Assembly: GCA_024278695.1 (NCBI GenBank) | Contig: JAJRSR010000280.1 | Coordinates: forward strand, 1 to 32,786 | DNA from: Planctomycetota bacterium | Lineage (GTDB): Bacteria; Planctomycetota; Phycisphaerae; UBA1845 | Length of the DNA: 32,786 bases | Direction of reading: 5' to 3' | In this document: positions 7,874 through 14,100 of the stretch, piece after piece | How the letters are laid out: each line of letters opens with the position of its first letter | Numbering within the stretch: position 1 is the first letter of the stretch | The notes under the pieces: generated by a model | What the model saw: the letters and a program-made list of their open reading frames with translations, nothing else | What the model was told of the DNA's origin: nothing | Databases searched by the model: none | Made by a program: the position numbers and the translations under genes

Positions 7874-9043
7874 ATGATGCCGAAGTACACCTGCGCCTGT
7901 GGCGCGACATACAAGTTTCACGCAACATCGGCCGGCAAGAAGGCCCGCTGCAAGAAATGCGGCGCGGTGTTCTCGCTACCCGACACGGATGATCCGCCTG
8001 ATGGCACCATCGCCATTGCGGCCGACGATCCGTTCACCCAGGAAGTCACCAAAACCGTCGCCACGCAGGGCGAACTGTACATCCCGCCATCTTCCCCTGG
8101 TGCCGTGACCTCAGGCATCCTCGGCTCCAGCATCGTCGGTGCCGTAGAGCCGCCGACGAGAAGCTTCACGACAGACGTGCTCTGGACGTTTCTGTTTCCC
8201 ACCACCGCCAATAACTTCGTTACGTTTGTCATGCTTCTGATCACTTTGGTTGTGGCTTCTTTCTTCGCATCTATCAAACTCTTCGGGCTCATACACCTTG
8301 TAGCAGCGGGTCTGTATGTGGCCGTGATCGGTTGGTACTGTGCGTACCGCTTCAGTATTTTGACCTCTGCGGCCGGTGGCGACGAGGAACTTCCCGGCTT
8401 CGTCGCGCCGACGAACTGGCTCATCGAAGCCTTCCAGGCCATGTTCAAATGGTTCGGTAGCTGGATCGTCGTGCTGATCCCGGCGATCGCCTACCGCATT
8501 TGGTATTGGTCCGCACAGCCGGTGACACCTCCAATGGCAACCGGTCCGGGCGTGATGCAACCAGCGATCATGCCGGGGAGCATCATACCCGATTGGATGA
8601 ACGATATCACCGCCGCAGCGGAGGGGCTGTCCGGCATCATGGCACTACCGCCGGACGGACTCGACCCGTTCAAGATACTGGTCGTACTGGGGCTATTTCT
8701 TTGGCCGTTCGTGGCGTTGTGCGTCGCGCTCGGCGGCTTCAGAACGCTGGTCCGCTTTGACCTGATGCTCGTAACGGTTGGCAGAACGATCGGCGTGTAC
8801 TCGATCATGGTGGTGCTCATCTGGGTGGCGTTTTTCCTGGAACACACACTCTCCACGCTGACAAGCAGCAAGGCCGCCGCGGTCGCCGCCGCAACCGGTA
8901 CCCCGGCCACAACATTCGGCGCAACGGCAGTCGGCGGCATCTGCGTACTCGGCGTGGGCATCTACTTCGACATCGTGCTGATGCGACTCATCGGACTGTA
9001 CTACCACCACTTCAAGAAAAAGTTCGCCTGGAACTGGGGGTAG
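7874..9043 (+). CDS. Zinc-ribbon membrane protein, Yip1-like (multi-TM)
   Basis: N-terminal MPKYTCACGATYKFHATSAGKKARCKKCGAVFSLPD followed by several hydrophobic segments. Confidence 0.8.
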   Translation: MMPKYTCACGATYKFHATSAGKKARCKKCGAVFSLPDTDDPPDGTIAIAADDPFTQEVTKTVATQGELYIPPSSPGAVTSGILGSSIVGAVEPPTRSFTTDVLWTFLFPTTANNFVTFVMLLITLVVASFFASIKLFGLIHLVAAGLYVAVIGWYCAYRFSILTSAAGGDEELPGFVAPTNWLIEAFQAMFKWFGSWIVVLIPAIAYRIWYWSAQPVTPPMATGPGVMQPAIMPGSIIPDWMNDITAAAEGLSGIMALPPDGLDPFKILVVLGLFLWPFVALCVALGGFRTLVRFDLMLVTVGRTIGVYSIMVVLIWVAFFLEHTLSTLTSSKAAAVAAATGTPATTFGATAVGGICVLGVGIYFDIVLMRLIGLYYHHFKKKFAWNWG

Positions 9044-9085: not shown

Positions 9086-10912
9086 TCAGGTTCCGGGTAT
9101 CGGTTCAACACTTCGGGAAATCCAAAAGGCGCATACGATGCCAAGCAGCGTACCGATGGCGAGCCCTACGTTCATGATTGTCGAACTCGCTGAGAGTGAC
9201 GCGGCGGCATGGCTGGCGATTCGATCCGTGTTCGTCATACCGGCGTCGGAAGTCGTCTGACATGCAACGATCAAGTGCTGTCCAGCCTGTTGCTGCTGCT
9301 TGTCCAATTTCTGGAATACCAGCCAGTTGTCCAGTAGGTCATCCATGGCGGTCTTGTAGTTGGCGGCTTCCGCCTCGATCTTGGTGATGCGGTTGAGATC
9401 CTCTTTGAGACGGGTGATCTGTCGGAGGGAAGCGAACTTGGTCTCCATCGTGTCGAAGTTGACTCGGGCCTTCTCAATGCTTGTTGGATGATGCAACGAC
9501 TGGGATTTGAAGCAAGCAAGTTGTGTCGCGTTTCCAAGTTCGATCACGTCATTGACCAACGTGATCTTCTCCAGACGTTCGAGGCGTTTGGCGGCATAAT
9601 CAACCACCAGTACCGTGGCGTCGTCGGTGGCGTGCGGTGGCTCTTCGACAGCCACCGCCAGCAACCGGCTCTGTTGCGGGTGGGTGCCAAGCCATTTGAT
9701 TGTACCGTTCTCTATGTCATAGACCGCGCCTACGACCTTAACCTTGCCCGCCTTGACCCGCTCCTGCACGGCGCGGCTCTTCGTAAGCACCTGCTCGATC
9801 GAATGCCACACGTTCTCCACAACGCCCGCGTTCACGAGGGCCGAACCAATCAAACCAGGGTTTGCGATGAGCACCTTGGCCACGGACGGCTGGATGTTCT
9901 TCAACAGTGCCGGGATGCTGCCGTGTGTCGTAGCCCCTGTCACCACTGCGGTGACCGCGCCACAATTGGTGTGCCCCAGCACGACCAACAGCGGGGTCTC
10001 CAGGTGGTCAACGCCGTACTCGATGGAGCCCAGCTCATCAACGGCACAAACATTTCCCGCAACGCGCACGGGAAAGAGGTCGCCTATCCCCTGGTCAAAC
10101 AAAGCCCCTACGGGAACACGCGAGTCGGAACAGGCCAGAATCGTGGCCGGCGGGTGTTGGTTCCCCACGACAGTTTCCGTTCTTCGCTCCTGGTTGATAT
10201 GAGGATTCGTGAGATGTCCTTGGACATACCGCAGGTTACCTTGCTTGAGTTGTTCGATCGTCTGATCGCCCTTGGGACACGGTTGCGCAGTGATCGAACC
10301 ATTGACGATCGAACCGTTATAGTCAGCCGTTTCTTGGGGTGCGGCACCACCGTGGGATGCCTCCGACCCGGTCCCAGGTGGGGAGCTATCGTCTCCGCCC
10401 AGTTCTTCCTGCATCATCTCGTTCTGGTGTTTGAGTAGCGCGGTGGCATTCTCCATGTACGCAGCCGCCGCTCGATTGAGTTCCTTGTAGTCGCCCTCAA
10501 TCCTCTTGTTTGTTGCGACGGTTTCCTCGATTAGCTTCTTGTACTCGTCAACGGCGGCCGTCGCTTCTTTGACTTGCCCTTTGAGTGCTTTGAAGTGAAC
10601 GGCTTTCTCTGCCAGGTCTTTTGCCTCTGCGAGATGTTTGTCCACCGCGGCCAACTCTTTCTTCGCTGCCTCGTAATAGGTAGGGTCGTTGGTCAAACCG
10701 TAGCCACGCATCTGGTACATCAAACGGCTGGCGGCCCCGCGCAGCGCCGTGGCGACCCTTACTTCGGGAATATATTCGCTGGTGAGCATTTCCGAATCGG
10801 TCTTGGCCGTCTGCATGCTCCAAACGCCCATTTCGCCCAAGACTACGGAAATCACGATAACGATCGAGAATCCGACGGCGATACGCTTGCCCACTCTCAT
10901 TGGCCCAGCCAT
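9086..10912 (-). CDS. Membrane-anchored chemoreceptor-like helical sensor domain with an inserted beta-carbonic anhydrase domain; no HAMP or MCP signalling domain
   Basis: ATG at 10912 after AAAGGGAGGTTGAACCC. TM1 RIAVGFSIVIVISVVLGEMGVWSM; helical region; CA domain ...ATILACSDSRVPVGALFDQG...DLFPVRVAGNVC...LVVLGHTNCGAVTAV... (about 9680..10270); helical region resumes EKITLVNDVIELGNATQLACFKSQSLHHPTSIEKARVNFDTMETKFASLRQI; TM2 IMNVGLAIGTLLGIVCAFWISRS; stop. Confidence 0.92.
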   Translation of the reverse strand: MAGPMRVGKRIAVGFSIVIVISVVLGEMGVWSMQTAKTDSEMLTSEYIPEVRVATALRGAASRLMYQMRGYGLTNDPTYYEAAKKELAAVDKHLAEAKDLAEKAVHFKALKGQVKEATAAVDEYKKLIEETVATNKRIEGDYKELNRAAAAYMENATALLKHQNEMMQEELGGDDSSPPGTGSEASHGGAAPQETADYNGSIVNGSITAQPCPKGDQTIEQLKQGNLRYVQGHLTNPHINQERRTETVVGNQHPPATILACSDSRVPVGALFDQGIGDLFPVRVAGNVCAVDELGSIEYGVDHLETPLLVVLGHTNCGAVTAVVTGATTHGSIPALLKNIQPSVAKVLIANPGLIGSALVNAGVVENVWHSIEQVLTKSRAVQERVKAGKVKVVGAVYDIENGTIKWLGTHPQQSRLLAVAVEEPPHATDDATVLVVDYAAKRLERLEKITLVNDVIELGNATQLACFKSQSLHHPTSIEKARVNFDTMETKFASLRQITRLKEDLNRITKIEAEAANYKTAMDDLLDNWLVFQKLDKQQQQAGQHLIVACQTTSDAGMTNTDRIASHAAASLSASSTIMNVGLAIGTLLGIVCAFWISRSVEPIPGT

Positions 10913-11147: not shown

Positions 11148-14100
11148 CTACCGTGAGGGGGTGTCGTTGTCATTCGGTGGCGGGGTCGACATCCGGTCGT
11201 TACTTGGAAACACGGTGTCCAGTTGGAGACCTTTCGGGCCTGCATCCCAAAGATGGATCGCGGGCTTGGTTTGTGTGTTCGCAGGGCTCAGTGCATCCTG
11301 GCCTAACCACAACGGTTCGGCTTGTGTACCTGCCGCGGCCGCCGGCACCGGACATGGCGTGCTGTTTGAACCCACGAAGTCGCTCGCCCCGAACGCCGCA
11401 CCGTGGGCGTGGCAGGATTGGCAGCCGGTGCAGAAGTCGTGCCAACTGTATGCAGTACGCCAGTCTACGTGGCAGGCGCTGCAAAGGCTGACATCACTCC
11501 CCCAGTCCACCGTGGTGCCACTAATGGTCACGGTGACATCCCGCACCGTCCCGAATGTATCGAAAGGCGGACCGTTAAACCCTGCACCCGTACGCGTGCC
11601 GTCGTCCACAAACATGGTTCCGTCAACGGTGTCGCGTATCATGTAGGGGTTTCCGACGGGGTTGGCCGGCGTGGCTGAGCCGTGCGGATCGTGGCAAACC
11701 GTGCAGTCCATCACCGCATCAGGAGCGCCGGAATAGCCGCCCCAGCTTCGCTTCGAGTCGAGGCCGTGCGCCGAGTGCGTCCACGAATAATCCGCGTACC
11801 AGGGACCGGGAACATAGTCGCACGAGTCGATACCGCGAAGGCTTGAGCAGTCGGCCGTCAGGCATGCCCCGCCCAGAATGGTGGTCCAATCAAAACCCAA
11901 GGTGCTCCATAGCGGGTCGTTCGGATCGATGACCGGCCCCACGACGTCGGGTGGGAAGCCGGGGTCCAATGGTCCAGTGCCGCCACCGTGGCACGACAAA
12001 CAGAAGTCGTTTCCGCTTCCAGTCCAAGCGGTCGTCGTGTCGAACGGGTCCGCAATCGGCTGCGTTGCGGAAGCGTTATGTGCCCCATGACAGTTGAGGC
12101 ACTCCAGTTTAGCGCCACTGAATAGCTGGTCGGCGTTGCTGATGTCGTGGTGACTGTTGCCCGCACGGAGGGTTCCCTCATTTCCGAAGCAGGTGTCGCC
12201 AAACATCTCCTGCCACTGGAGCGTACCGGTGAATTTTGACGCCACATCCGGCGGTGTGTTACCGTTACCAAACGGATCGAAAGCGTTGGCGAGGCGGGTA
12301 GCGCCGTCGGCATCATGGCACGCGGCGCAGAAGTCAGATAGGTCCGGGTCGGTCGCGAGATCGTTTGGAGTGATGAAGCTGTAGAGGGTGCCACTGTCCG
12401 CGTCGAGCAGTTCGACGTAGCCGTTCATGTGGGTTGTCACGTCGTGGCACACCGTGCAGGAGCCGCTGTCCAACACCGCGCCATAGTGGGCGTGACTATC
12501 CCCCACGGGGAACTCGCCCACGATAGCCCGCCGCCCGCCAACGGGGATTCCGTCACCGTTGTCCTGGGGACCGGCGTGGCAGGACGTGCAATCTCCACCA
12601 ACGGGCATGAAGCCCGTGTCATGAGGGTGGCAACTCGTGCAGGACGTGCCGTCGTTATGGGGTACACCGGCACCATCGTAGGTGTGGTACGCCGTCTGTG
12701 TGTGGCAAACCTGACAGATCCCATCGTTGATCGTCGGATCACCATCGTCGAAGCTGTTGGCACCGGTCCTCGCTGTAAACAACACGGGCGTATCTAGGCC
12801 GAGGGTCACGTTGGTAACTATGGGAGCGATGAGCGAAAGATTGCTGCTGCTCACATCGTGCATGTCGTGGCAATCGACGCAGGTGGGCTGCCACGCACCT
12901 GTCGGCGTGTGACCGATATGGTCCACGTGGCACTGTCGGCACATGGCGCCGTTGGTGTTATTGGCTCTTAGGTATGGCGCAGCAGCTTCACTGGTGTGCT
13001 GATCGTGGCAGGTGGCGCATTTGATATTTCCAGCGTCAAGGTAGGCCTCGAGCGTGCTGCCCGGCGGTGGACCCACGGAACCGACGCCTGCGTTGACAGC
13101 GGGTACGTCCCAGGCGTGTGTCCGACCGGCGCGACCGGAAAGACCAAGTTTGTCTAACTCGTGGAGTGGTTTCGTCATGCCTTGTCCGCCGCCCACATGG
13201 CATGAAAAGCAAAGTGACTGCTGCCCTTCGGTTAGGGATGGGTTGTCGCCCGGTTGCCCTGGAACGCCGTGGCACCGCCCGCAAACGACCGAAGCGTCAA
13301 GCATGTGCGGCCCGTCAAAGCCGTCGGTGCTGGCGACCACCGGGAAACCGGTATCGAAGATCGCTTGCCTTATCTTGGTCTGACGCCCCATTGATTTGAT
13401 TCGTGGCCCGTCGGTTGTTCTGTCTCTCGTATCCAACGCTCGCACGGTGTCGTAGGCGGTGTCATACGTGGAGCGGTCGGTGCCCGCGGGACTTGGACTG
13501 GTCTCTTGCCGACGCGCGGCGCTGATCGTACCCAAGTCCGGCGTGAGGAAGATCTCTACGCTCGAGGTGTTCGTGCTGACGACATACAGTCTTGTGCCGT
13601 CGTTGCTAAGCGCCAGCCCGCAGGGTGAGCGTAAGCCGCCGGGTGCGGCTCCGTAATCGACGACCTTTCCCAACTCCGTACCGAGCGGGTCAAACAGGCG
13701 GACGGTGCTCATGAAAGCGTCGGCCACGTAAATGTTGCCGACAGCATCGACCGCGAGGCCCAGCGATCGTGGCATCCATCCTTCATCTCCACCGCCGACG
13801 AGGAACCTGATCCGGTAGCCAAATCGGTGGGTGAAGATTCCGGCCGACGTGAACACCTGTATGCGGAAGTTGTCATGATCGGCCACGACAAGCCGGCCGT
13901 TGGTTTCGTCCACGGCGACGGCACTGGGGTATTGAAACTACCCGTTTTGCTCACCATGAGTCCCGAGAATCAAAGCGAGTGCGCCGCCGGAATCAAACCC
14001 GTAGATCCGATCACCGTCCGCATCGGTAACGTAAATGTTTCCGGTCGAGCCGGCCACAGTGATGTCCGTCGGACGCACAAAGCTAACGAGGGGTTCGGTA

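Follow-up and report, generated by a model that had tools for sequence, protein, structure and literature searches.

The locus and its carbonic anhydrase domain

We have analyzed a window of 32,786 nucleotides (the whole stretch of DNA, which corresponds to one whole contig) from a Planctomycetota genome, a 3.55-Mb MAG in 331 contigs. On its minus strand there is a gene that starts with an ATG at position 10912 and whose stop codon ends at position 9086 (Table 1). It codes for 608 amino acids without internal stops, the single uninterrupted frame that an earlier note on this DNA had read there, and AAAGGGAGG, located 5' of the ATG, is a Shine-Dalgarno sequence that provides a good ribosome-binding site. 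The GC content by codon position (GC3) was coding-like and similar across all three parts of the gene. Hydropathy gave two hydrophobic spans, residues 6–35 and 575–602, as expected for the topology TM1, periplasmic sensor and TM2, and in agreement with the earlier claim that two transmembrane segments bracket the rest of the protein. The Pfam matches to Dsc3_C and CheZ scored below the cutoffs and were discarded as coiled-coil noise. Upstream, on the same strand (11148–13913, minus), there is a long ORF in which NHL-like repeats and, after them, numerous CxxCH motifs were recognized by eye, a likely multihaem cytochrome. On the other side, the convergent neighbour (7874–9043, plus) codes for a zinc-ribbon membrane protein; 48 of the 51 genomes of the family contain a match to it.

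Table 1. Parts of the chemoreceptor gene with a nested carbonic anhydrase, in window coordinates.
Feature	Position	Strand	Basis
Whole gene, 608-aa truncated chemoreceptor with nested beta-carbonic anhydrase	9086..10912	minus	One uninterrupted frame
TM1, residues 6–35	10808..10897	minus	Hydropathy; start of AF2 helix 7–74
Sensor half 1, residues 36–173, helices H1–H3	10394..10807	minus	4HB_MCP_1/HBM matches, similarity to CA-less MCPs, AF2
N-side linker, residues 174–211	10280..10393	minus	Low complexity, predicted disordered, pLDDT <50
CPxG motif, residues 212–215	10268..10279	minus	Found in all four nested CAs
Beta-carbonic anhydrase domain, residues 216–418	9659..10267	minus	Pro_CA profile; Rv3588c (2a5v) by sequence and fold
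Zinc Cys261 and Asp263/Arg265 dyad, CSDSR	10118..10132	minus	Active-site residue check
Zinc ligands His314 and Cys317, HTNC	9962..9973	minus	Active-site residue check
C-side linker, residues 419–435	9608..9658	minus	pLDDT <50 at 421–437
Sensor half 2, residues 436–574, helices H4–H6	9191..9607	minus	Up to 51% identity to CA-less sensors; AF2
TM2, residues 575–602, ending ISRSV	9107..9190	minus	Hydropathy; aligns with TM2 of MCPs with signalling domain
Tail EPIPGT-stop, where HAMP/signalling part of homologues starts	9086..9106	minus	Alignment with homologues

The central part of the protein is a beta-carbonic anhydrase (CA). The Pfam profile Pro_CA matched residues 256–405 over its full length (1–156 of 156, E 5.6e-38), and the zinc ligands C261, H314 and C317 were all there, together with the dyad D263/R265. 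The CA had been described as complete, which holds for the zinc and dyad residues, while its start has to be corrected to about residues 213–216, after a low-complexity linker of 38 residues. The closest solved protein was Rv3588c of M. tuberculosis (2a5v; 1.2e-30 by sequence), which was also matched by fold (E 4e-8). The fold, the same zinc site and an identity of 32–34% relate the domain to the secreted beta-CAs of the PRK15219/Rv3588c group, which has stand-alone relatives in Planctomycetota and Desulfobacterota, many of them about 45–59% identical; it differs from this group in being nested between sensor helices, membrane-anchored and provided with a CPxG motif. SulP-Pro_CA fusions, found in the same class, also join a membrane protein to a beta-CA, but there the join to the transporter is C-terminal and end-to-end, and the CA belongs to a separate clade. 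A hydrophobic, exported-type N-terminus was present in 31 of 51 CA homologues. Within the 3.55-Mb MAG, the window gene was the only Pro_CA match. The catalytic residues were retained in all four nested CAs that we have found (see below), and judging by sequence the nested CA is catalytic-looking, a predicted enzyme.

Insertion into a helical bimodular sensor

The regions at both sides of the CA resemble the sensors of chemoreceptors. The profile 4HB_MCP_1 matched residues 5–153 (27.9 bits against a cutoff of 27), and HBM matched the protein at 1.1e-5 with a score below its curated cutoff (25.4 against 29.8 bits). In the CA-less relatives Pfam HBM was found in 10 out of 10 at E <= 0.01 (best 3.2e-11), and the best solved-fold match of a CA-less sensor was the HBM domain of McpS (2YFA, E 1.6e-4, TMt 0.79). 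Six sensor helices appear in the AlphaFold models with and without the CA. The window sensor is, as modelled, of the HBM type, i.e., a six-helix bimodular fold like that of McpS. HBM domains bind organic acids (PMC5126104), the ligands being located at the dimer interface (PMC5449446). The likeness to the HBM chemoreceptors McpS, McpK and McpQ lies in the periplasmic sensor of six helices and two modules, but in the window protein the H3–H4 turn holds a CA of some 200 residues with its linkers, and the cytoplasmic half is lacking.

In CA-less MCPs of same-order relatives, window residues 1–172 and 442–602 are contiguous with no CA between them, and in the alignment of CA-less sensors the empty site is seen as the ...QNEAM...G of half 1 running straight into ...L.ERL.KIT. 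The AlphaFold model of a CA-less sensor (pLDDT 86) consisted of helices 7–74, 77–103, 108–172, 177–210, 213–219, 221–236 and 240–345, with a turn of four residues between 108–172 and 177–210. In the AF2 model of the window protein (a moderate pLDDT of 73, the CA region being less certain and all models being monomers) the helices were 7–74, 77–103 and 108–170 in half 1, and 436–473, 484–499 and 503–601 in half 2. Because the helix layout matches in both models, the CA replaces the H3–H4 turn. The empty-site alignment and the predicted folds rule out an end-to-end fusion, and the empty-site homologues together with the intact host fold indicate that this is a true domain insertion. The N-side linker showed weak conservation when aligned with the closest nested relative (L083).

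Most of what the earlier note had proposed for this architecture is sustained by these data. Its reading of the flanks as chemoreceptor sensor helices agrees with the profile searches, the CA-less homologues and AF2, and its assignment to the helical bimodular type with the fold match to 2YFA, the same helices in the window protein and the HBM matches of the CA-less relatives. The nesting of the CA between two sensor halves is recovered in the profile searches, in the comparison with empty-site homologues and in the predicted structures; structure prediction had been suggested as the way to tell insertion from fusion, and it gave an insertion in place of the four-residue turn. The predicted structure and the helix lengths also fit the membrane-distal location that had been claimed, from which we infer that the CA would sit at the tip of the sensor, and hydropathy and structure prediction fit an extracytoplasmic, membrane-tethered topology.

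Nested relatives and recurrent linkage to chemoreceptors

Three other genomes, one of Phycisphaerae and two of Hydrogenedentota, have a CA nested likewise. The protein of the Phycisphaerae MAG (L083/L046) has 923 aa; those of a Hydrogenedentota MAG (L104/L140) and of a second Hydrogenedentota genome (L141) are frames of 954 and 965 aa, the latter located directly 3' of a CA-less paralogue. The MCP signalling domain is present in all three (by Pfam in L083 and L104, by BLAST in L141), so that the search for homologues keeping this domain, advised in the earlier note, succeeded three times. The same order of parts in three other genomes rules out an assembly chimera inside the ORF, and as the Phycisphaerae protein aligns with 52% identity over window residues 4–603 in that same order, we can for practical purposes discard an origin by chance or as a chimera. 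The genome scan for nested sensors worked with a four-sequence sensor alignment, while scanning the genome contigs with one protein as query found nothing. No further nested case came out of scanning two whole phyla, that of the window and that of Desulfopila, for which the three best candidates of each genome were scored.

In the CA tree the four nested CAs formed one group with weak support (SH-aLRT 56), within which the values were 99 for the window CA with L083 and 89 for L140 with L141. The CPxG motif was found just before the domain in 4 out of 4 nested CAs and in 0 out of 73 other aligned CAs, with a chance probability of about 7e-7, a figure that ignores shared ancestry and refers to a motif picked out post hoc. 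A clade of the four host sensors was rejected (AU p 2.5e-30, four changes), and the two sensor halves treated separately agreed in not grouping the hosts. Either there were several entries of the CA cassette into the H3–H4 turn, or a single entry was followed by sensor exchange or repeated CA loss. At this same H3–H4 site, one or two extra HBM-like repeats were observed in the HBM-type sensors of other loci (L061, L062, L063, L084, L086–L092, L094, L095 and L101).

In at least 11 other chemoreceptors (L047, L064–L069, L139, L142, L143 and L144), CAs of the same group are joined to the N-terminus, with a layout of one or two CAs followed by TM, sensor, TM and MCP. Desulfopila aestuarii DSM 18488 (L139:4140-11000) has in a row, on one strand, an HBM-type MCP gene, a CA gene and a 1237-aa CA-CA-MCP gene. 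Neighbouring CA and HBM-MCP genes on the same strand were found in D. aestuarii and in two other genomes (G114 and G464). A double-CA membrane protein is encoded 31 bp after an HBM-MCP gene in L070, and L142 has a CA-MCP gene next to an HBM-MCP gene. Two other arrangements were observed. In L049:3049-5313 (G017) an MCP is preceded by the C-terminal half of a CA that has lost the zinc site, and in L048:3-1919 (G099) a CA-TM-sensor frame at the contig start runs into a CheB-like methylesterase, a configuration that could reflect fusion, decay or a join made during assembly.

Probable truncation of the window copy and proposed function

The window protein has six residues beyond TM2 and ends at the point at which the other nested proteins continue into their cytoplasmic part. 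Pfam found no HAMP or MCP signalling domain in it, no remnant was found downstream in any frame, and the MAG contained no orphan MCP domain or fragment belonging to this receptor. The host genome codes for proteins with a CheW domain, some of them in frames the size of CheA, and for two MCP-domain proteins. In relatives, conservation of the convergent neighbour extends as far as the C-terminal residue, and its gene ends 42 bp from the window gene. As neither remnant nor orphan domain was found and the neighbour is intact, the truncation is probably genuine, although a MAG cannot settle it; the gene might be a pseudogene in decay, or its 3' end might result from an error in the MAG assembly. 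That the nesting is real and the window gene only a non-functional remnant or 3' assembly artefact would fit the position of the stop, at the TM2/HAMP border, and the 331 contigs of the genome; we regard it as very unlikely in view of 608 codons free of stops, coding-like GC3 in all parts and an intact active site, besides the evidence from the orphan search and the neighbour. The earlier note had left the choice between a CO2/bicarbonate-linked sensor and a scaffold. For this copy, whose signalling domain is absent, the second option (a scaffold or tethered CA) is the likelier one, and the protein most likely persists as a tethered periplasmic CA.

We give about even credence to the window gene being a truncated member of a small type of CO2/HCO3-/pH chemoreceptor with built-in CA, persisting as a tethered periplasmic CA. 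In its full-length relatives the CA would probably equilibrate CO2 with HCO3- and H+ right at the sensor dimer, the HBM sensor would read HCO3- or the local pH, and the signal would pass via TM2 to the MCP signalling domain, resulting in CO2/HCO3-/pH taxis. The window copy would be a periplasmic CA tethered to the inner membrane, where it might pair with other receptors or buffer them. The linkers, which vary and are of low complexity, point to chemical coupling rather than to a rigid mechanical one. Both beta-CAs and HBM domains form dimers, and therefore the CA dimer and the sensor dimer could stack. The sensor ligand need not be HCO3-, since most receptors with this sensor carry no CA, and the CA may be a passenger because the linkers look flexible. 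The functional link between CA and receptor is mainly supported by the recurrence of their physical and genomic linkage. A CO2/bicarbonate chemoreceptor class with an active CA, the CA being a cassette that entered the H3–H4 turn of several HBM lineages, is a proposal that we make tentatively, with somewhat less than even confidence.

The CA might instead be a built-in binding domain that works without catalysis, its Zn/HCO3- site sensing and its movement or dimerisation being passed to the HBM helices. Several observations would speak for such a role. The ectodomain of RPTPgamma is CA-like, with an alpha-CA fold (unrelated to beta-CA), and non-catalytic. This vertebrate receptor phosphatase is a putative HCO3- sensor (PMC7541084), similar to the proteins described here in being a receptor with an extracellular CA-like module and different in being eukaryotic and having another output. 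Plant beta-CA4 regulates SLAC1 in the CO2 response apart from catalysis (PMC13128974), HBM-type receptors such as CtpL can work with binding proteins too (PMC6321045), and the fold search also brought up TorS-TorT structures. Against it, all catalytic residues are retained, and low-complexity linkers of about 17–40 residues, dissimilar between homologues, oppose rigid coupling, so that we consider a non-enzymatic role unlikely. It is also improbable, in our opinion, that the sensor helices merely anchor a periplasmic CA for carbon supply or pH control, the full-length relatives included. The window copy without signalling domain and the genome without other Pro_CA match would agree with a simple tether, but three relatives keep the MCP signalling domain, and the fusion of CA and MCP in at least two architectures, plus CA genes beside HBM-MCP genes, would be odd if the receptor were irrelevant. 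The chemoreceptor with built-in CA is the reading that we retain.

To our knowledge, TlpA of Helicobacter pylori has no CA domain. This chemoreceptor has been reported to mediate attraction to bicarbonate (PMC5245789), and the likeness is that of a chemoreceptor tied to bicarbonate, although it is another receptor. We found no description of a CA-chemoreceptor fusion in the open-access literature, and an earlier mention elsewhere is possible. Each of the domains was already known; it is the nested combination of CA in HBM that appears to be new.

Little is known about dedicated CO2 receptors in bacteria. A receptor equipped with an enzyme of its own for hydrating CO2, if this is what these proteins are, would be a concrete and testable molecular candidate for bacterial CO2 reception. 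The N-terminal CA-MCP fusions, one of them in the cultured D. aestuarii, are material that can be tested already, and the conserved H3–H4 insertion site is a natural place for grafting domains onto chemoreceptors.
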